A DNA stretch of 64,000 bases from a virus, in the IMG/VR virus record IMGVR_UViG_3300036768_000279, positions 62,001 through 126,000 of that record. The stretch is one strand, 5' to 3'. Shown one piece after another: positions 5,648-63,670 of this stretch. Within the stretch, counting starts at the first letter, position 1; every line of letters begins with the position of its first letter. Below the pieces are notes generated by a model. That model made no database searches, was not told where the DNA came from, and saw only the letters and a program-made list of their open reading frames with translations. Made by a program: the position numbers and the translations under genes.

Positions 5648-6686
5648 AACAGAGAAGAAGGCGTTGCGGAACCACGCGAACCGCAACATTACCTACTTAC
5701 TCGACAAGCTCGCCGTCAGCTATACTGATCGCGGGAATGGACTCATTCAATCTTGCTGCAAGTGTCAACAGCACGGTGGAAATCGCGACAACCCAACTGC
5801 CTTTAGTTGGCGTCCCGATCTAGGCAAGTGGGTTTGCTGGACACACCATTGTGAGGAGTTGCGTGGCAATGACATCTTTGGGCTTGTTAGTAGTATTCTA
5901 GGAACTAACTTTGCAGCGTCGGCTAAATGGATCCATGATCGTTTGGCAGAGAAAAGCGTTGACGTTACACAAGAGGCGGCACCGCCCGAGAATTTACATC
6001 GTGGCACAGCACTACATACCCACGAACCACTCAAAGAAGATAACCTGCGTTTCCTGCAAATGGACCCAGCGTATCTCATTCAGCGTGGATTTAGCAAGGA
6101 AGTTCTACGCGACTACAACGCAGGACTGTGGCAGCGTCCTGGGACATTCATGAATGATCGTGTCGTATTCCCTATTCGCGACCATGACGGATTCTTGGTT
6201 GGCTATACGGGACGCACCATTCATTCAGAACAATACTTCTTGGAAAAGGGCATTGAGTATCGCAAGTGGATTCATGGCCGTCACTACAATCTATGGCCAA
6301 AGCGTGGCGAACTACTTATTAGTTCCTTGCTCTTCAACTTGAATAGAGCCAAGCGGTATATGGGTCATCAGAAGAAGATGATTGTTGTAGAAGGTCCGCT
6401 GGACGGCATGAAACTAGAAATGGCTGGAATACACAATTGGGTGGCAACGCTAGGAACCACTTTTTGTGCCAATCACCGCACCCTTTTGGTCAAGTATGGC
6501 GTAACTGATTTGTACGTCGCATATGACGATGATGAGAACGAGGCTGGCGAGAAGGGCCTCATGCGACTCAAGCGTGTCGTCGGCGACATTTTCAATGTTC
6601 ACAAGGTCGATCTCCTCAACGCACACGATTGCGGCGACCTGACAGTAGAACAACTTCAACTCATTTTCAAGGGGATCGGATGCTGA
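5610..6686 (+). CDS. DnaG-type DNA primase
   Basis: A primase that lays RNA primers for lagging-strand synthesis. A zinc-binding start (CCKCQQHGG...CWTHHC) is followed by the catalytic region and a TOPRIM motif (MIVVEGPLDGMKLE) with downstream acidic residues (YDDDENEAG). About 348-358 residues, short for DnaG but usual in phages. The start is uncertain: ATG 5610 has an AAGAAGGG site but overlaps the helicase by 38 bases, while ATG 5640 gives the 8-base overlap more usual in this genome. The adjacent DnaB-like gene supports a primosome pair. Confidence 0.88.
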   Translation: MQRERMMTTRMTETEKKALRNHANRNITYLLDKLAVSYTDRGNGLIQSCCKCQQHGGNRDNPTAFSWRPDLGKWVCWTHHCEELRGNDIFGLVSSILGTNFAASAKWIHDRLAEKSVDVTQEAAPPENLHRGTALHTHEPLKEDNLRFLQMDPAYLIQRGFSKEVLRDYNAGLWQRPGTFMNDRVVFPIRDHDGFLVGYTGRTIHSEQYFLEKGIEYRKWIHGRHYNLWPKRGELLISSLLFNLNRAKRYMGHQKKMIVVEGPLDGMKLEMAGIHNWVATLGTTFCANHRTLLVKYGVTDLYVAYDDDENEAGEKGLMRLKRVVGDIFNVHKVDLLNAHDCGDLTVEQLQLIFKGIGC

Positions 6687-11900: not shown

Positions 11901-12195
11901 CATCTACAAGGCACGCCACAAATGCGTGGACCTCGTAAAAGGTGCTTCCGCTGGCATGACTTTTGAAATTGCCGTATGCATTGATGGCGTTCGAGAGATC
12001 ACCACTAAGAAGGGCGACGCTATGGCCTTCTTGACGGCTCGCGATAACACCTATCAGATGGACAACATTGTTGTCTTCCCGAGAACCTTTGCGGCATGCA
12101 AGGGGCTTTTGGAGTCTGGTAACGTCATTCGGATTAAAGGCAAAGTCGATGATCGTGGATCGTTGATTGCCGACGTTGTGGAAAGACTTAAATGA
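8908..12195 (+). CDS. dnaE: DNA polymerase III alpha subunit-like (C-family, DnaE type)
   Basis: The phage replicase, 1095 residues, slightly shorter than bacterial DnaE. The N-terminal PHP domain is recognisable (HLSVHSKASML, ALTDYSNLFNAIEFY) but several metal-binding His residues of active PHP domains are replaced, as in E. coli DnaE, so intrinsic proofreading is unlikely. The palm has GRGRGSAGGSLVSYALGIT and the catalytic PDIDTD. The fingers and helix-hairpin-helix region follows (FAGYGFNKSHGVGYALMAY), then an OB-like end. No exonuclease domain is fused; a DnaQ-like enzyme is encoded at 56913-57512. Replication by a C-family enzyme is uncommon but known among large phages. Confidence 0.93.
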   Translation: MNFTHLSVHSKASMLYGSANVNDIIKRVKELGQTSVALTDYSNLFNAIEFYKQAKAAGIKPILGVDVFFCEDAEQLRIQKVRQVSHLILLAETDAGWKNIARIVSEANNEVNYYYNPRVDFKLLEKYKEGVICLTGGSLDGVIAKHLYDKPTEDGTGVEPAAIFKAEGLVRRFLKIYGPSNFFLEVQFTGLSQQEQINARLRAIALKYGIRTVATGNVHYVHQHDAESHKTLLAMSENAYSKLTYTDFSHEEYYIKSREQLLAAGLQEAELDITNEIAARCNVNIDISKRRLPKYAFVPEGKTSDEYLAELANDGLSRLPKVAGSDQEYQDRLDRELNDIREMGFSDYFLIVHDVISWVRSKEILLGRGRGSAGGSLVSYALGITEIDPLQYGLIWERFLNKGRGGLPDIDTDVPRSKRQKVLEYIRNRFGAGNVAQLVTFNGLQARAVLKEVFRVYNMPFDEANKITALVPAKNDEHVAISLDEAIESVKELKEYSEKYKPWFTIARALEGCYKSTGIHAAAVVISDVPFADSAYPLTRSKDGDLIFGWDMNTVDALSLLKLDILGLNTLDDIQVTMDLVKARRKIEISRQSVPLDDPLTYAMIGQGFTVGVFQIEKQLGRTWSKNLKPENIDQLSDLVSLIRPGPMESGMHTQYRDVKMRGAEPTYIHPSLEPILKNTYSGLLYQEQVIEICRVLAGMSLIDADKVRKAMGKKKPEEMKKWQEVFTSGCSKNGIDPDIALSIWSYIDKFAGYGFNKSHGVGYALMAYETAYLKANYPVEFLCAKLTNSDGEAEKLSSLVYDAKLFNIEVTPPRVTHANKDFDVVTDNHIAFGLTALKGVGVAAVSDMIKMSKGLKTFDEIIWKWATTKSKVTSATMMAFIKGGAFDDVQEHRVRGVARLKLLDSLTDKERESITHLRRIETDITDWVRFVRSLADDAKVDQIKEKYGVAIPNVRRRTTIRELLQEYDAGELFDSKAQRIAWEQFYLGISLSGSEADIYKARHKCVDLVKGASAGMTFEIAVCIDGVREITTKKGDAMAFLTARDNTYQMDNIVVFPRTFAACKGLLESGNVIRIKGKVDDRGSLIADVVERLK

Positions 12196-12407
12196 ACTAC
12201 GAATACGACTTTCACGACATTGGTCTAACTGAGGATCAGCGTCGGCTTGTTGACCTTGGAATGGTCAAGGTTGAGGACATCAGTGCCCGAATCAAAGAAA
12301 TCGTGAACGAACGGGCTAAGCAAGGATGGGAACCGCTCTACCCATTCACTGTGCCACTTCTGTGGTTCAGACGCATTCCTCCTACTCAAAAACGTAAAAT
12401 TCGCTGA
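12192..12407 (+). CDS. Small hypothetical protein (DUF4177-like pattern)
   Basis: 71 residues, coupled to the polymerase by an ATGA overlap. The opening MNYEYDF and the later INxxAxQGWEPL pattern (here IVNERAKQGWEPLYPF) resemble DUF4177 proteins, small alpha/beta proteins of unknown function. The similarity is short and judged by eye. Confidence 0.55.
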   Translation: MNYEYDFHDIGLTEDQRRLVDLGMVKVEDISARIKEIVNERAKQGWEPLYPFTVPLLWFRRIPPTQKRKIR

Positions 12408-12433
12408 CAGTCTAGTCAGTCGGTGTCATCATA

Positions 12434-12799
12434 ATGTTTGACTATGCAACGGTCCATATGCTTGGACGGGCTACTGGCGAAGCAGCCTTTTCAAGATCGG
12501 AAGATGGTCGCATTGTGAAGGCTGTATTCACAATAGCGTGTAACGTACCAATACAGCGTAACAACGAAAAGATCGCCAAGACTATCTATCGTACAGTCAT
12601 GGTGATCGGATCATATGCCAACTACGTAAGCAAGTGCCAAGAAGAGGACGGCCTCAAGGGACGCTTGATAAGCGTTGTTGGAATCATGGATGACGAAAAG
12701 TATACGGAAAATGGCGTCGATCGATACCGAGAAGTTACTCGCGTGTCACCAAGCGGATTCATCAAGATCATGGACCGGAGGGTGAGACATGATGGTTGA
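12434..12799 (+). CDS. SSB-like OB-fold protein
   Basis: 121 residues with the strand order of bacterial single-stranded DNA-binding proteins: an opening strand with LGRATGEAAF, a middle AVFTIACNVPIQ, a helix region IGSYANYVSKC, then GRLISVVGIMDDE and a closing FIKIMDRR. There is no acidic tail of the kind used to recruit partners. A second, more canonical SSB is encoded at 63281-63670. This copy probably works with the adjacent polymerase. Its end overlaps the sigma factor gene. Confidence 0.68.
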   Translation: MFDYATVHMLGRATGEAAFSRSEDGRIVKAVFTIACNVPIQRNNEKIAKTIYRTVMVIGSYANYVSKCQEEDGLKGRLISVVGIMDDEKYTENGVDRYREVTRVSPSGFIKIMDRRVRHDG

Positions 12800-13448
12800 T
12801 GTTCCCGACGATGCCGTAGCTCAGGTTCTCGAACAGTATCATCCGTTCGTGCGGCACATTGCAAAACGTGCCTGTCATTCCTCTTCTGCCCTAGACATCA
12901 ATGACCTGTATCAGGTTGGTGACATGGCAGTATTAAGAGCCGTTCGTGCTTATGATCCGTCTTCTGGCCGCAACATCAAGTCGTTTGTTACGAATTCAAT
13001 TCGTAATGCTATCTTCAATGAAGCCGCTCGTTTTCTCGGCGTTCTGACTGTCGATTTCAGAACTACAAATTTGGCATCTATGGCGTCTAAGATGCACGAA
13101 AAGGGAAAGAGCGATGAAGAAATCGCTACGGCTCTGACAGAGAAGTATGGACGCAATTTCGACGCTGCACATGCCCGTGATCTACGCATCACGTACAATC
13201 GCAGACATTACTCTCAAGTCCAAGAAGACCTTGCTATGGAAGGCATTGAAAATGACTTGTCCATCAAAGATCTCCTAGATAGCGTCGTCAAAGACGAAGC
13301 GGATCGTATTATCCTTGACAGACGCATTTTTGGCGGCTGCTCTATTGAGCAGATTGTTGCCATTCTTCACATTTCAAGAAAGGCTGTTTCCAAGAAGGAA
13401 GCATGTCTTAAGACAAGAATCAAGCGAGCCCTTGAGGACGCGGCATGA
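12789..13448 (+). CDS. RNA polymerase sigma factor (sigma-70 family), copy 1
   Basis: 219 residues. A region 2-like segment (DINDLYQVGDMAVLRAVRAYDP, then SFVTNSIRNAIFNEAARF) would bind core RNA polymerase and the -10 element. A region 4-like helix-turn-helix (CSIEQIVAILHISRKAVSKKE) closes the protein. Such factors redirect the host polymerase to phage promoters. A GGAGG site precedes ATG 12789. It is the last gene of the replication operon and overlaps the first glycosyltransferase. A second sigma factor lies at 52820-53353, so two phage promoter classes are plausible. Confidence 0.85.
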   Translation: MMVDVPDDAVAQVLEQYHPFVRHIAKRACHSSSALDINDLYQVGDMAVLRAVRAYDPSSGRNIKSFVTNSIRNAIFNEAARFLGVLTVDFRTTNLASMASKMHEKGKSDEEIATALTEKYGRNFDAAHARDLRITYNRRHYSQVQEDLAMEGIENDLSIKDLLDSVVKDEADRIILDRRIFGGCSIEQIVAILHISRKAVSKKEACLKTRIKRALEDAA

Positions 13449-58194: not shown

Positions 58195-58375
58195 TTGGTG
58201 TTTGTCCTTGTGCGTTTTGCACAGGTGGTTGCACTTGGCTAAGCATAGACAGTGCTAGGAAAAGGTTAATGGTAACTCCGATTGGAGCACCGACATTAGT
58301 TGTACGGAGAGCGGCCATCAAAATACGAGCCTCGTCCCCGGACAATGCGATATTGGGTTGTGCTTGGTCAGCCAT
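58181..58375 (-). CDS. Small hypothetical protein
   Basis: 64 residues. A helical centre (ALSGDEARILMAALRTTNVG, then VTINLFLALSMLSQ) with a Gln/Pro-rich tail. It overlaps the dNMP kinase end (8 bases) and the next gene (14 bases), typical of real small genes here. No family recognised. Confidence 0.55.
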   Translation of the reverse strand: MADQAQPNIALSGDEARILMAALRTTNVGAPIGVTINLFLALSMLSQVQPPVQNAQGQTPNEGL

Positions 58376-59135
58376 TGATCAGTCCTCGTGCTTTCAAAAC
58401 GCCACGTACGTAGTTTTCAAGATCCTCAAACGAGCCGTTATTCTGATACGTGTTCTCGAAAGTAAACCCGTCCAAAGCAACCTCGCTGGGGTGATTATCC
58501 ACAAACCCAGTAGACCTCTCAAGTCTAATGATGACGCCGCCAGCGTCTTCTGTCACGCTCTTTTCATTGGGAAACCGACAATCTGTCAAGATTACTACGT
58601 CGGCATCACCCCAATTACGATTGAATGGAGCTTTAGCCCATACCTGATCGTACATAGCTCGGAAGATGTCCGTCCCCACAATTTGCAGCACTTCGCGATT
58701 AGTCATTGGGCCGCTACGAGGCAATGACTGTGAGCGTGTCTCTGGCACGTCGCTAAATGAATCATACCCCTGATTGTAGATAGCAAACTCATTGCTGTAT
58801 TTCAAGCGGACTTCAAGTGGGAGGCCATCCCACATGATATGAGAAAGCGAGTTCTTTTGTGCGTCTGTACCATACACGCCCTCTGGCTTCAAGCCAAGGA
58901 TCTCGACACACATACGCTTGAGTGGTTCTGCAAAAGCGGTTAGCACCGTTTTCTTGCCATACTCTGCCATGATCTTTACGATCATGTTAGCTGCTGTATC
59001 TTTGCCAACCTGCTTCTTGCCAGATAGTGCAATGAATGCCGGACGAGTATGGGGGGTGTTTTTAGACATATCTTTCAAGTCCATGCACAACGACACCGCT
59101 GGCTCGCCATAGTCTACTTCATCAAACCAGTTCAT
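58368..59135 (-). CDS. Deoxynucleoside monophosphate kinase
   Basis: 255 residues. P-loop SGKKQVGKDTAANMI, then TAFAEPLKRMCVEILGL and the typical MTNREVLQIVGTDIFRAMY and VVILTDCRFPNE segments of T4 gp1-like dNMP kinases. It phosphorylates dNMPs to dNDPs, supplying precursors together with NrdJ, ThyX and MazG encoded elsewhere in the window. About 28 residues precede the kinase fold; ATG further in would be an alternative start. The gene begins after a hairpin at 59160-59182. Confidence 0.88.
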   Translation of the reverse strand: MNWFDEVDYGEPAVSLCMDLKDMSKNTPHTRPAFIALSGKKQVGKDTAANMIVKIMAEYGKKTVLTAFAEPLKRMCVEILGLKPEGVYGTDAQKNSLSHIMWDGLPLEVRLKYSNEFAIYNQGYDSFSDVPETRSQSLPRSGPMTNREVLQIVGTDIFRAMYDQVWAKAPFNRNWGDADVVILTDCRFPNEKSVTEDAGGVIIRLERSTGFVDNHPSEVALDGFTFENTYQNNGSFEDLENYVRGVLKARGLING

Positions 59136-59159: not shown

Positions 59160-59182
59160 TAGGAGTCTGTGTCAAACTCCTA
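59160..59182 (-). terminator. Hairpin overlapping stop codon (minus strand)
   Basis: 7-bp stem TAGGAGT/ACTCCTA with a nine-base loop. Read on the minus strand it includes the TAG stop of the DUF4406 gene and is followed by GAATTTTCAC, moderately U-rich. It separates the tRNA-repair/DUF4406 genes from the dNMP kinase operon. A weak or conditional terminator. Confidence 0.5.
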
Positions 59183-59581
59183 AGGTGTACGCAACAGCTT
59201 GGCCGGTGTATGAGCACTTGGCGTGATTAGTTGCAAATCGGCAGAAAAGCACGGTTGTCCAAACACTTGGGCCATTTGGTATTCAATCGTGGCCCCCTTT
59301 GATTCTTGCCAATCGGGCAGAAACACTACCGCGTCACAGATTGCTTGCTGTCTAATTGCATGTCTCATGCAAATAGCCCAGCCTTCTTTGAACTCCTGCG
59401 GATCGTCGAGTCTCAGGTATGCTGGCCACGATGTACGACGTGGATTTTCTACATCAAATCCCATCGCATGGAGGCGATCTTCCATTTCGGCAAACGCCTC
59501 CTTGTTGCCATTCGGCTTGCCTGAGATACCTCCACTGATATACACGCGGAGACGCTTCTTGATGTCATTTAGACTAGTCAA
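59180..59581 (-). CDS. DUF4406 protein (nucleoside deoxyribosyltransferase-like)
   Basis: 133 residues. RVYISGGISGKPNGNKEAFA opens the Rossmann-like fold; DAVVFLPDWQESKGATIEYQ has the DxxxxLxxWxxSxGxxxE pattern of DUF4406, related to nucleoside 2-deoxyribosyltransferases. The conserved Glu in GATIEY could be the nucleophile. A role in nucleotide salvage or signalling-nucleotide breakdown is possible but unproven. It overlaps the nucleotidyltransferase gene. Confidence 0.8.
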   Translation of the reverse strand: MTSLNDIKKRLRVYISGGISGKPNGNKEAFAEMEDRLHAMGFDVENPRRTSWPAYLRLDDPQEFKEGWAICMRHAIRQQAICDAVVFLPDWQESKGATIEYQMAQVFGQPCFSADLQLITPSAHTPAKLLRTP

Positions 59582-60344
59582 TGTATTTCACCTTTTCTTG
59601 CAAAATAGATGGGTTGTTGGCAACTGCCACGAGCACGTCATTGATAGTTCCATCACAAATTGAATAGCCCTGTTTGGCGTACTTCAACATGCGACGCACT
59701 GTCGAAAGTGCGTGGTGTACGTTGTTGACACGCAATTGCTTTCGACCAATGTCATACAGAGTGTATTGCCCCACCATAAGCGTATTGCCATCGGTGAGGA
59801 ATTGACAATTGGTGTAATCAAACCACTCAAGAACCTCTTCCGGGCTACCGAAATAGAACTTGATTAGTTGTAGCTTGAATGGCTTTGATTGAGGAGCATC
59901 AACGGTTGGCGTGAGCGTGACTTCAAGCGTCACATTCAATTCATTCTCACTAATCACCTTGGTAGTTCTCCATGGTGTATTGAGAGTGTCTTTGAATGAT
60001 TGAAGTTGTGCTTCGCTGGCAAAGAATAGATCGAAATCGCTTTCGTCGTTGTTGCCATCGAAGAGACGACGAATCGAGCCACCAGCGAGCCACGGTCCAA
60101 CAACAAAATTCAATGGCTGAATTCCATTGACCACTTCCATGAAGCGGGCTGGATATCCGGTGGTTGGATTGTAGTGCTGACGAGCTACAAACTCAGTCAG
60201 TTTGAGGCAATACTGTTTGCCCGCCAATCTCGTCTGCAATTCTGAATTCGAATCCATAAGCTCTCTCCAGTTCTTTACCTCATTATCGTTTGTCGTGTAG
60301 CCAATACGCAAGGGCTTGTTATCAGGATTCTTGCGTTCACTCAT
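59574..60344 (-). CDS. Nucleotidyltransferase-fold protein
   Basis: 256 residues. The Pol-beta-type motif is plain: WLAGGSIRRLF at about 85-95 and, after a short loop, SDFDLFF with Asp103 and Asp105. The rest is helical (YTLYDIGRKQLRVNNVHHAL, STVRRMLKYAKQGY). It resembles tRNA nucleotidyltransferase catalytic domains in this motif but lacks the rest of a CCA enzyme. It is ATGA-linked to RNA ligase and CCA-adding enzyme genes, so it probably acts on RNA ends or modifies a protein. Substrate unknown. Confidence 0.72.
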   Translation of the reverse strand: MSERKNPDNKPLRIGYTTNDNEVKNWRELMDSNSELQTRLAGKQYCLKLTEFVARQHYNPTTGYPARFMEVVNGIQPLNFVVGPWLAGGSIRRLFDGNNDESDFDLFFASEAQLQSFKDTLNTPWRTTKVISENELNVTLEVTLTPTVDAPQSKPFKLQLIKFYFGSPEEVLEWFDYTNCQFLTDGNTLMVGQYTLYDIGRKQLRVNNVHHALSTVRRMLKYAKQGYSICDGTINDVLVAVANNPSILQEKVKYID

Positions 60345-61414
60345 TCGCTTGCCAAAACCTTTCCCTTTTCGTCTTTGACCTTTTCAAGGACGATTTTCCA
60401 GATCTTGTCATTTATGCTCTTCTTGTCCAAAAGACCGAATACGATACCAGTGAGTTCGTTTGGCGTATTAGCCTGAATCCACAACGCCTGCGTCTTGCGG
60501 TCCCCCTCGGGGATGCGAGCGGCGATACTCTCGGCTTGGATACGAAGCTTATCATGCATTCCCTGTACGTAGGCACGAATGTCATCAAAATCCTGCTGAA
60601 TTCCTTGCGGCAATTCCTTGACGGTGACGCCGTATTCATTGCCACGAATTAGCTCAATGATACCCTTGGGGCTCATGTGATTGAGCAGTCTGTGGACACG
60701 GAGATACGCAGGCGACTTCACCTTGACTCGCTTACCGCTCGCAAAACGGGCGACGTAGCCCTCTTCGTTCGACGCAAACGGAATTTCGCCGCGTAGGTCG
60801 ATGTTGTAACGACGAGGACGACGGAATCCGCACTTATCCGCGATCTGATCGACACGACGAGGATGCCATTCTTCGCCATTATGCTCGAAGATTGCGAGCA
60901 GACACAAGAAGGTCTCGCCTTTATAATCTACGACGATACGGTTTTCGGGATAGATAATCTCGAAGATCGGCGTGCAACCCTGAGGCAAGTGCTCCAGAGT
61001 GTACTGCGAATTGAGGATGGCGGTACCCGCTACGGCTTGATCCGACTCCATGCTACCCGGCGTGGCCAAACGCCAACGACCATCTAGCATGTAGCCAATG
61101 CCACACGAGCCATCGAGCTTTTCGTAGATCTCGACTTCCTCATGCCACGGCAGATTCTCCACCATGCTTTCCGAGACTTCTCCCAGGTTGAAAAACTTAG
61201 GAAAAGGTCGTGCAACGACCGTGCCATCGTCTCGGAAAATGATACCACGAGCCTGACGGTTCACGTCGTTCCAGAGACCCTGGATGTGAGTGTCCTGGGT
61301 GTACTTGAAAATCGTCAGGTCGCCCATCCGCGACGCGGATACGCGACCTTCCTCAACTTCCTTGAGGAGCTTTTCGTAGAGGATGTAGTCTTTCATTTCC
61401 AGTATCCGTCTCAT
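60341..61414 (-). CDS. RNA ligase, T4 Rnl1-like
   Basis: 357 residues. Nucleotidyl-transfer motif I is EKLDGS with Lys99; upstream ARGIIFRDDGTVVARPFPKF and FNLGE match Rnl1-type ligases. Motif III-like TPIFEIIYP, motif IV EGYVARF and motif V RVKVKSPAYL follow in order. It seals RNA ends with ATP; T4 Rnl1 repairs tRNA cut by host anticodon nucleases. No polynucleotide kinase/phosphatase is seen in this window, though neighbouring sequence beyond it could hold one. ATGA overlaps on both sides. Confidence 0.9.
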   Translation of the reverse strand: MRRILEMKDYILYEKLLKEVEEGRVSASRMGDLTIFKYTQDTHIQGLWNDVNRQARGIIFRDDGTVVARPFPKFFNLGEVSESMVENLPWHEEVEIYEKLDGSCGIGYMLDGRWRLATPGSMESDQAVAGTAILNSQYTLEHLPQGCTPIFEIIYPENRIVVDYKGETFLCLLAIFEHNGEEWHPRRVDQIADKCGFRRPRRYNIDLRGEIPFASNEEGYVARFASGKRVKVKSPAYLRVHRLLNHMSPKGIIELIRGNEYGVTVKELPQGIQQDFDDIRAYVQGMHDKLRIQAESIAARIPEGDRKTQALWIQANTPNELTGIVFGLLDKKSINDKIWKIVLEKVKDEKGKVLASE

Positions 61415-62646
61415 GCGAGAGCCCTGGCTCTAGCCTGTTCCATCTTGGCTCTGATCTTCTCGCCATCGCGAAGCGACGCGAATTGGTCACCACGAACAGT
61501 ACGGAACTTATCTGCCGCGTCAAGCACGGCTTGACGCTGCGGGTACGGCTTGTCATGGAACAGCGGGCCACGTCCTTGAGCATCCGCCTGAGCGGCCAAC
61601 GTCACTCGTTCGATGAGCGTATTTCCGTGAGCGGCTCCGAGTCTATCGAGGAGCCGCACCTTCGTCATCGGCTTCAATTCATTGAAACGGTGAACGTTCA
61701 AGTGCTCGCGAGACGCGGCAACGCCAACGTCACGCATAGCATTCGGAACCTTCAAACGCTCACAGAATTGATGCACAAGAGGCACGCCAAGTGCTTCGTG
61801 ATTGTAGTGGTGCGGAAGATTGTCGTCATCCGTCACGGCCTTGCCTAGATCATGTACGAGTGCCGCAAACATCGTAGCGTCATCCGCTCCGAGTTCGCGT
61901 GCTCGGTCCACAACCAGAAGCGTATGAACGAACGCATCGCCTTCCGGGTGGTGCTGCTCGGACTGAACGCGACCTTGCAGTGCCGCAAGCTCTGGAAACA
62001 CCACATCTAGACAATTGAACACGTCCAGTGATTCGAAGAACTTGCTTGGCCGTTGCGAACGCAACGCCTTCATGAGTTCCGTGAATACCCTCTCTTGCGA
62101 AAGAGAGTTAAGCTCGCCACGCAAGAATTGGCACATATGAACAAGCTCCCACGTAGGCTCGAAGCCGCATTGTGCGGCGAACCTTGCGGCACGCAACACA
62201 CGCAGCGGGTCCTCTAGAAAGTGTTCGCTCACAGGAGCCAAACACTTTTCAGAAATCGCCTTGCGGCCACCAAACGGATCGATGATTTCGTCCGTGAATG
62301 GATTCATGGCCATCGCATTGATCGTCAAATCACGACGGAACAAATCTTCATGCAGCGAAACGCCATCCGTTTCACACTCGAATCCCGTGTGTCCAGCACC
62401 GATCTTGCGTTCTTTGCGAGCAAGTGCAATTTCGATACCGTCAACGATCAAAATAGGAAACGACTTACCAACGGGCTGTTCACCTTCCGGCAGGGCAGCC
62501 AAAAGCTGTTGCATCGTCATGCCAACTACGCACAGGTCCACATCCTTGGCCTGTCTGCCCATGACTAGATCGCGTACGGCTCCGCCAACCACAAACGGCT
62601 GGCCGCCAGCCGCCTGGATGCGGCGACATAGATCAAGATGCTTCAT
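61411..62646 (-). CDS. cca: CCA-adding tRNA nucleotidyltransferase with HD domain
   Basis: 411 residues, E. coli Cca-like. PFVVGGAVRDLVMGRQAKDV with DVDLCVVG gives the catalytic GG and Asp35/Asp37. LFRRDLTINAMAMNPFT and DPLRVLRAARFAAQCGF are the nucleobase-specificity and neck helices. The C-terminal HD domain has HHPEGDAFVHTLLVVDRA and ALVHDLGKA. It restores or repairs the 3' CCA of tRNAs. Viral copies are rare. Next to RNA ligase it suggests repair of tRNAs damaged by host defences, or maturation of phage tRNAs encoded outside this window. Confidence 0.93.
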   Translation of the reverse strand: MKHLDLCRRIQAAGGQPFVVGGAVRDLVMGRQAKDVDLCVVGMTMQQLLAALPEGEQPVGKSFPILIVDGIEIALARKERKIGAGHTGFECETDGVSLHEDLFRRDLTINAMAMNPFTDEIIDPFGGRKAISEKCLAPVSEHFLEDPLRVLRAARFAAQCGFEPTWELVHMCQFLRGELNSLSQERVFTELMKALRSQRPSKFFESLDVFNCLDVVFPELAALQGRVQSEQHHPEGDAFVHTLLVVDRARELGADDATMFAALVHDLGKAVTDDDNLPHHYNHEALGVPLVHQFCERLKVPNAMRDVGVAASREHLNVHRFNELKPMTKVRLLDRLGAAHGNTLIERVTLAAQADAQGRGPLFHDKPYPQRQAVLDAADKFRTVRGDQFASLRDGEKIRAKMEQARARALA

Positions 62647-62659
62647 GCCCTATTCTAGC

Positions 62660-62938
62660 TTACGCGGTAGGTGTAGTCAACTTCTTTCTAATATCCATCA
62701 ACGCCTTACCAAGGAAATTACTTCCTTTGCCGTTACAGACACCCCAGAACGTATCATTCCAAGTATTGCCTTCAATCAATTCGGCGTCGCCAGTAGCTAT
62801 CAATTGGTCTCGAAGCCACGGCTCTTTGAATTTGGCGGCAAGAATGTCGGCCGAAATGCATTCTCTGACGACGGGTATGTCCTCGTATTCGACCTCGCAG
62901 GGCCAAAAGTTACTCAGGAAGCGGAATTCGCCTGACAT
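62660..62938 (-). CDS. Shortened NADAR (YbiA-like) protein
   Basis: 92 residues from ATG 62938. The N-terminal GEFRFLSNFWPCEVEYE and C-terminal ATGDAELIEGNTWNDTFWGV, then GKGSNFLGKALMDIR, are clear NADAR family sequence. Full-length members have about 60 more residues between these blocks, including the VEHAYQ-type segment with a catalytic Glu. Here the blocks are joined by IPVVRECISADILAAKF. NADAR enzymes cleave N-glycosidic bonds and can reverse ADP-ribosylation. This copy has probably lost that activity through an in-frame deletion, or works as a partial protein. Confidence 0.75.
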   Translation of the reverse strand: MSGEFRFLSNFWPCEVEYEDIPVVRECISADILAAKFKEPWLRDQLIATGDAELIEGNTWNDTFWGVCNGKGSNFLGKALMDIRKKLTTPTA

Positions 62939-63206
62939 TCTTTTCAAAGCGATTGCACTCCGTCACCTTATTGAACACGAGCGGCGAGAACTTGGCATTC
63001 CAAAAGCACGCAGAACGAATCTTGTTCATCTCTACAGAGATCTGATTCATGCCAGGCTCTTCGCCCTGTCCTTCAAACGGATTTCCAGGCACTATGCCGG
63101 GCTGCATGAAGGTTTGCGTGTCACTATCGTGAAGAACCATACCGTGCTTGCAATTCCAGCACAGGCTATCTTGAGGCCGCAAGATCTCTTCGTCTTCATC
63201 CGACAT
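62910..63206 (-). CDS. Small CxxC protein
   Basis: 98 residues from ATG 63206, chosen because GGAGG lies 8 bases upstream; ATG 63212 is too close to that site. A single CWNCKHGM pair near the N-terminus, with further Cys residues (SACFWNAKF, TECNRF), suggests a zinc site. The pattern CWNCKHG...CFWNAKFSPLVFNKVTECNRF resembles small phage proteins with a Cys-His zinc fold. Overlaps the NADAR gene. Confidence 0.6.
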   Translation of the reverse strand: MSDEDEEILRPQDSLCWNCKHGMVLHDSDTQTFMQPGIVPGNPFEGQGEEPGMNQISVEMNKIRSACFWNAKFSPLVFNKVTECNRFEKNVRRIPLPE

Positions 63207-63280
63207 ATTCATTGCCTCCATAATAGGACGAGGACTGGCTTGTGTCAAGCCCGTCCTCGTAAAACTTGAGCCGTCTCGGC

Positions 63281-63670
63281 TCAGAAGAGCTTGCCTTCGC
63301 CGGTTGCCGCTTCGGTAGCAGGAGCCTCAGCCCCCTCCTTCTGTCTGCCGCCACCACCAACAAAGCTGAATCCGCCGAAATTGTCGAGCGTTACCTCGAT
63401 CTTGGAACGCTTCTGTCCGCTTTCCTTGTCTTCCCAGCGGTTCTGGCGAAGAGATCCCTTGACGATGATCTGCTTGCCTTTCTTGAAGAATTCCTTGATG
63501 GTTTCGACCTGTTTGCCGAAAGCCACACAATCAACAAATGCGGTTTCCTTGTTTTCACCGAAGCCGTTATTCACGGCCACAGTAAATCGAGCCACATGCT
63601 GGTCCTTGCCGACGATCTCGGGATCAGCCGTCAAGTTTCCCTGCAAAACAACAACGTTCAAATTGCTCAT
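63281..63670 (-). CDS. ssb: Single-stranded DNA-binding protein
   Basis: 129 residues, canonical OB-fold SSB: NVVVLQGNLTADPEI, ARFTVAVNNGFG, AFVDCVAFGKQVETIKEFFK, GKQIIVKGSLRQNRWEDKES, then a Gly-rich linker. The tail is short and ends GEGKLF rather than the acidic DDxPF of bacterial SSB. It should protect single-stranded DNA during replication and recombination. A second, more diverged OB protein is at 12434-12799. Confidence 0.92.
   Translation of the reverse strand: MSNLNVVVLQGNLTADPEIVGKDQHVARFTVAVNNGFGENKETAFVDCVAFGKQVETIKEFFKKGKQIIVKGSLRQNRWEDKESGQKRSKIEVTLDNFGGFSFVGGGGRQKEGAEAPATEAATGEGKLF

Follow-up and report, generated by a model that had tools for sequence, protein, structure and literature searches.

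Conserved phage operon with a CCA-adding enzyme and an Rnl1-type RNA ligase as a probable tRNA-repair system, and an overlapping Gad2-like nucleotidyltransferase gene

Host defences that put tRNAs out of action are widespread, and mending cut or trimmed tRNAs is a known phage answer to them. On the phage side, the RNA-repair repertoire described in jumbo phages comprises Rnl1, polynucleotide kinase, RlaP, CCA-adding enzyme and HD or calcineurin phosphatases (Iyer et al. 2021, PMC7824862). Further points of comparison are the Pnkp and Rnl1 pair of T4, Rhizobium phage RHph_I1_18 with a CCA enzyme, an RNA ligase and a polynucleotide kinase side by side, and Gad2 of Bacillus phages SPbetaL6/L7, which is listed as an anti-Gabija protein of unknown mechanism (PMC12904381). 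Here we analyse a 64,000-nucleotide stretch of viral DNA (the window), positions 62001-126000 of the 147,927-base IMG/VR virus record IMGVR_UViG_3300036768_000279, in which a first-pass annotation had seen a tRNA-repair cluster of three ATGA-coupled genes (59574-62646) for a CCA-adding enzyme, an Rnl1-like ligase and a second nucleotidyltransferase (NTase). We give a probability of about 0.58 to the reading that CCA enzyme and ligase form a phage tRNA-repair system together with a kinase whose gene has been displaced, and that the third gene is an accessory Gad2-like NTase; of the proposed cluster, the CCA enzyme and ligase (with the kinase) are thus retained and the third gene is set apart. 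The repertoire itself is already described in jumbo phages, all of its parts occur in the window genome or its relatives, and the present operon adds another case; what differs is that kinase, CCA/HD enzyme and ligase make up one conserved operon in the relatives and that our record, at 148 kb, is below jumbo size.

The three open reading frames (ORFs; 411, 357 and 256 residues) are open and collinear, run leftward on the minus strand and meet in ATGA overlaps at both junctions, just as first annotated. Judged by family scans and motifs, the 411-residue product of 61411-62646 is a CCA-adding tRNA nucleotidyltransferase of the E. coli type with a C-terminal HD phosphohydrolase domain. It matches phrog_2244 (E 8e-105), shows PolyA_pol, RNAbd and HD domains, scores far better against the 'multifunctional CCA' model NF008137 (3.6e-109, a score below the model's strict cut-off) than against the poly(A) polymerase PcnB (4.4e-31), and aligns with Salmonella Cca at 40% identity. 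All NTase-head motifs are kept, namely GGAVRD, D35-x-D37, RRD, EDxxR (the amino-acid template) and ERxxxE, and so is the HD domain (PF01966, 1.8e-8), whose H241, H265, D266, H315 and H319 are invariant in comparison with Salmonella Cca. Such a domain is found in the CCA enzyme but not in the poly(A) polymerase of E. coli, and functional HD domains of bacterial CCA enzymes remove 2',3'-cyclic phosphates (PMC10673834, citing Yakunin 2004 for the latter).

The second gene (60341-61414, 357 residues) is, by its motifs, a T4 Rnl1-type ATP-dependent RNA ligase, so that here too the identity first assigned is borne out. Family scans place it in phrog_562 (E 6e-65) and RNA_lig_T4_1 (4.5e-19), and alignment with T4 Rnl1 (2c5u) finds motifs I (KxDGS), IV (EGYV) and V (KVKS) intact; as to the C-terminal part, the phrog_562 alignment reaches profile position 367 of 377, and the phmmer alignment to T4 Rnl1 ends at residue 247. 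Matches in most relatives do not set in until residue 5-7 of the window ORF (MKDYILYEK), so translation may start 18 nt downstream of the ATG in the ATGA overlap. The label of phrog_562, 'RNA ligase and tail fiber protein attachment catalyst', might suggest a catalyst of tail-fibre attachment, which T4 gp63 also is, rather than an RNA-repair enzyme; this seems very unlikely to us, given that adenylation and ligation motifs are intact and that the gene lies among nucleotide-metabolism genes, beside kinase and CCA genes in relatives and away from tail genes.

Support for a functional unit comes from the relatives, for which we took ten IMG/VR loci whose ligases are 54-81% identical to ours and searched eleven genomes record-wide, the window genome included; several of these records are fragmentary, which makes absences weak evidence, and L014 and L015 are near-duplicates. 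The common gene order, with gaps, is single-stranded DNA-binding protein (SSB), P-loop kinase, small protein, sometimes NADAR, CCA enzyme, Rnl1, DUF4406-like protein, deoxynucleoside monophosphate kinase (dNMPK), small protein and exonuclease. Among the ten nearest relatives Rnl1 is present in all, the CCA enzyme in eight and a small polynucleotide-kinase-like protein in all, its gene standing in the same operon between SSB and the homologue of 62910-63248. Record-wide, both kinase and Rnl1 are found in 11/11 genomes, CCA in 9/11, RlaP in 5/11, the phrog_4400 NTase (see below) in 3/11 and tRNA genes in 10/11. This co-occurrence supports the pairing of CCA enzyme and Rnl1 proposed at the outset. 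In the window genome itself the kinase gene lies outside the operon, at genome positions 6014-6466, and its 150-residue product is 72% identical to the kinase of L008. Its best family is phrog_2071 'ATPase' (6.5e-32), followed by phrog_505 'polynucleotide kinase' (4.5e-10) and AAA_33 (PF13671, 9.6e-10), and the protein holds a P-loop domain only, with no phosphatase domain. A genome check for a polynucleotide kinase/phosphatase hence yields a kinase-like gene without the fused phosphatase.

Compared with T4, then, the Rnl1-type ligase with intact motifs and the polynucleotide-kinase-like P-loop protein (in one operon in relatives) are shared, while the kinase is a lone domain rather than a fusion with a HAD phosphatase, a CCA enzyme is added, and either the HD domain of that enzyme or a metallophosphoesterase would have to serve as the end-healing phosphatase. 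Phage RHph_I1_18 has the same three neighbours yet differs by a Thg1, another gene order and a ligase annotated as RNA ligase A. With respect to the phosphatase, L016 (genome G009), which is without the CCA enzyme, carries a 179-residue metallophosphoesterase between kinase and ligase as if in place of the HD domain, and G003, G004 and G008 have metallophosphoesterase genes no further than about 1 kb from RlaP. These few cases suggest that a phosphohydrolase is required in the operon, a part that would normally be played by the HD domain of the CCA enzyme. L013 shares its flanking small genes with L014 yet has no CCA gene, and in the unrelated virus L072 metallophosphoesterase, kinase, Rnl1 and a CCA head stand in a row. 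The window genome also has an RlaP-family NTase gene outside the window, at genome 11906-12805 (L002:11906-12805, minus strand; PF10127 2.5e-16, phrog_388 2.5e-82).

The 3' ends of the phage tRNA genes bear on what the CCA enzyme is for. By ARAGORN the window genome has 15 tRNA genes (17 with the Rfam model), of which 14 lie at genome 129649-134090, one lies at 145074 and none falls inside the window. The first-pass annotation had held that many phage tRNAs lacking an encoded CCA would point to ordinary maturation; 3'-CCA is encoded in 13 of the 15, Arg-ACG (ACCG) and Phe-GAA (TCAA) being those without it. Across the group, CCA is encoded by 138/148 tRNA genes where the enzyme is present (eight genomes) and by 38/39 where it is absent (two genomes; Fisher p 0.46; the near-duplicates L014 and L015 mean that not all counts are independent), and in six enzyme-positive phages outside the group the figure is 105/114. 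With more than 90% of tRNA genes encoding CCA, their 3' ends do not explain the enzyme, and ordinary maturation as its main reason is rejected. A broader alternative joins maturation to the everyday end-turnover of phage and host tRNAs, unrelated to damage; in line with it, CCA is missing from 2/15 tRNA genes here and from 10/148 in the enzyme-positive group, and CCA enzymes occur in 484 phage records. We consider it rather improbable, since there is no significant difference between enzyme-positive and enzyme-negative genomes and since the bacterial hosts possess an end-repair enzyme of their own. The CCA enzyme is better read as repairing damaged ends, and end turnover may play a part.

Turning to the third gene (59574-60344, 256 residues), its product is an accessory Pol-beta-type NTase of the phrog_4400/Gad2 N-domain superfamily according to family and profile comparisons. 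It matches phrog_4400 (unknown function, 2e-19) and phrog_1614 (nucleotidyltransferase, 6.5e-7) and no Pfam or NCBIfam family in our scans. An N-terminal extension of about 80 residues precedes a GG..D-x-D..FDYT domain, in which invariant residues of a six-member alignment include G88, G89, D103, D105, Q159, F175, D176, R218, G226 and Y227. Alignment with Gad2 of SPbetaL7 (WIT28108.1, 400 residues) gives 27% identity over 150 residues by blastp, covering Gad2 residues 29-162, and a probability of 97.7 in profile-profile comparison (hhalign); the N-terminal GG, D-x-D, FD[FY]T and R..KY motifs are shared, and Gad2 itself matches phrog_4400 at 7.9e-27. Past Gad2 residue 174 there is no credible alignment and the window protein ends; it lacks the Gad2 C-terminal region and has an N-terminal extension of its own. 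At the level of sequence, the third protein is homologous to the N-terminal NTase domain of Gad2, for which the discoverers reportedly predicted an NTase fold.

Structure adds little here: the AlphaFold model, built on a five-row alignment, is poor (mean predicted local distance difference test score, pLDDT, 51.4), its PDB matches point only to a Pol-beta fold, and matches in a viral library are mostly to uncharacterised proteins. Single-sequence searches of viral contigs with the third protein returned nothing or almost only self-matches. Two other assignments were tried and dropped: the protein is not an RlaP (no match to PF10127 or phrog_388, the RlaP of this genome being the separate gene at 11906-12805), and it has no match among PADLOC defence proteins.

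In the group the phrog_4400 family occurs at different places in the three genomes that have it. The position of the gene varies, as homologues in two different phages (L012:559-1287 and L016:2546-3283) end a few bases before a tRNA-Arg(TCT) gene. In relatives the interval between ligase and dNMPK holds the DUF4406-like gene, and the slot between ligase and DUF4406 in L008 (7288-7540) and L009 (7174-7494) has stretches like the first 46 or so residues of the third protein, without the NTase domain, which suggests gain or loss in this slot. In Streptococcus phage 9871, a phrog_4400 protein is flanked by exonuclease and SSB, and none of the 50 annotated features is an RNA-repair gene. With 3/11 genomes, a variable slot, Gad2 homology and a family member in a phage without annotated RNA-repair genes, the placing of the third protein in an RNA-end cluster is not supported, and with modest confidence we regard its gene as an accessory, variable-slot gene that more likely serves counter-defence than RNA repair.

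Building on the gene identities, motif conservation, operon conservation, tRNA 3' ends and Gad2 homology computed here, we infer enzymatic activities, targets, division of labour and the defence countered as follows. A host nuclease would cut the tRNA anticodon loop, and the ends so formed would be a 2',3'-cyclic phosphate and a 5'-OH. Opening and removing the cyclic phosphate would fall to the HD domain of the CCA enzyme, phosphorylation of the 5' end to the kinase and sealing of the break to Rnl1, before which RlaP may optionally restore lost nucleotides. Upon loss at the 3' end, the NTase head of the CCA enzyme would rebuild CCA. Substrates would include host tRNAs as well as the roughly 15 phage tRNAs. 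The third gene would most likely act by nucleotidylation of a host target and in this way counter some defence that does not cut tRNAs.

Several points weigh against this scheme. The kinase is small, has phrog_505 as its sole link to polynucleotide kinases, its better family being named 'ATPase' and AAA_33 being general, and in the window genome it is not in the operon. The exchange of metallophosphoesterase for CCA enzyme is seen in one genome; Arg-ACG and Phe-GAA would need a CCA enzyme, which leaves a maturation role for a minority of tRNAs; and as the mechanism of Gad2 is unknown, transfer of its function to the third protein is weak. Moreover, the ATGA overlap of the third gene with the ligase gene favours a shared role, and in L012, L016 and L072, loci that were fetched for holding the ligase, no more than about 5 kb separates the third-gene homologue from it.

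These last two points bear on the rival idea that the third NTase belongs to the repair set proper, adding nucleotides to cleaved or trimmed RNA before sealing as has been proposed for RlaP. Homologues near ligase or kinase in the same three loci and beside tRNA-Arg in L012 and L016 would fit this as well, as would a motif A resembling that of class II CCA/poly(A) polymerases. Even so, the gene was not found in 8/11 records that keep ligase and kinase (some of them fragments), its family is present in phage 9871 without annotated RNA-repair genes, an RlaP already exists in the window genome, and the homology is to Gad2, all of which makes membership unlikely in our view, albeit far from negligible. 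Another thought, that the third NTase is a toxin of the MenT/AbiEii type that inactivates tRNAs of host or competitor, with ligase and CCA enzyme protecting the phage, draws on Pol-beta folds that the model weakly resembles, the H. pylori NTase 4ok0 and MenT4; given the low model confidence (pLDDT 51), no sequence match to MenT or AbiEii families and a family carried by phages and akin to an anti-defence protein, we attach hardly any weight to it. An accessory counter-defence NTase remains our preferred assignment for the third gene.

The boundaries of the cluster are arbitrary, for the genes are collinear at least from SSB (63670) through to the exonuclease (56913). By family scans and synteny in relatives, its upstream anchor is the SSB gene (63281-63670) and its downstream anchor the dNMPK gene (58368-59135), both on the minus strand like the other window genes of this run. 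Next to the NTase gene, and overlapping it by 8 bp, family scans place a DUF4406 or nucleoside 2-deoxyribosyltransferase-like gene (59180-59581); in L011 (3694-4683) the DUF4406-like gene seems to be split by an insert, in frame and some 160 residues long. Upstream of the CCA gene, the NADAR-domain gene (62660-62947) is probably a relic: in comparison with L008 and L009, some 45 internal residues are missing, among them the YPSSEHA.QAAK segment that both keep. Next upstream is the gene of a conserved small operon protein (62910-63248), which has no family match and has homologues at the same position in most relatives. Outside the window, a gene pair for rebuilding NAD (NAD salvage), nicotinamide phosphoribosyltransferase and ribose-phosphate pyrophosphokinase, lies beside the tRNA cluster at genome 127384-129629 (L006:1384-3629, minus strand).

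What these findings may mean is best seen against Cas12a3 immunity, which cuts the CCA tails of tRNAs; how viruses might withstand it is, according to its authors, a matter of means 'yet unknown' (January 2026, PMC12851939). A phage CCA enzyme is a natural candidate answer to such tail cutting, though a good many of the mapped cuts extend as far as the discriminator base. Ba1Cas12a3 cleaves mostly 3-5 nt from the end and can remove that base, a loss that CCA addition by itself would not make good. CCA enzymes occur in many phages, and their simplest alternative explanation, the finishing of CCA-less phage tRNAs, fails a direct test here. It is a speculative extension, and one we would not yet expect to prove general, that HD-bearing phage CCA enzymes serve counter-defence at large by rebuilding tails cut by immunity (Cas12a3, for example) and by making the ends left by anticodon cutting ready for the operon's own kinase and ligase. 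As for the third gene, the occurrence of a Gad2-type NTase domain on its own in diverse phages helps to frame how Gad2 works.

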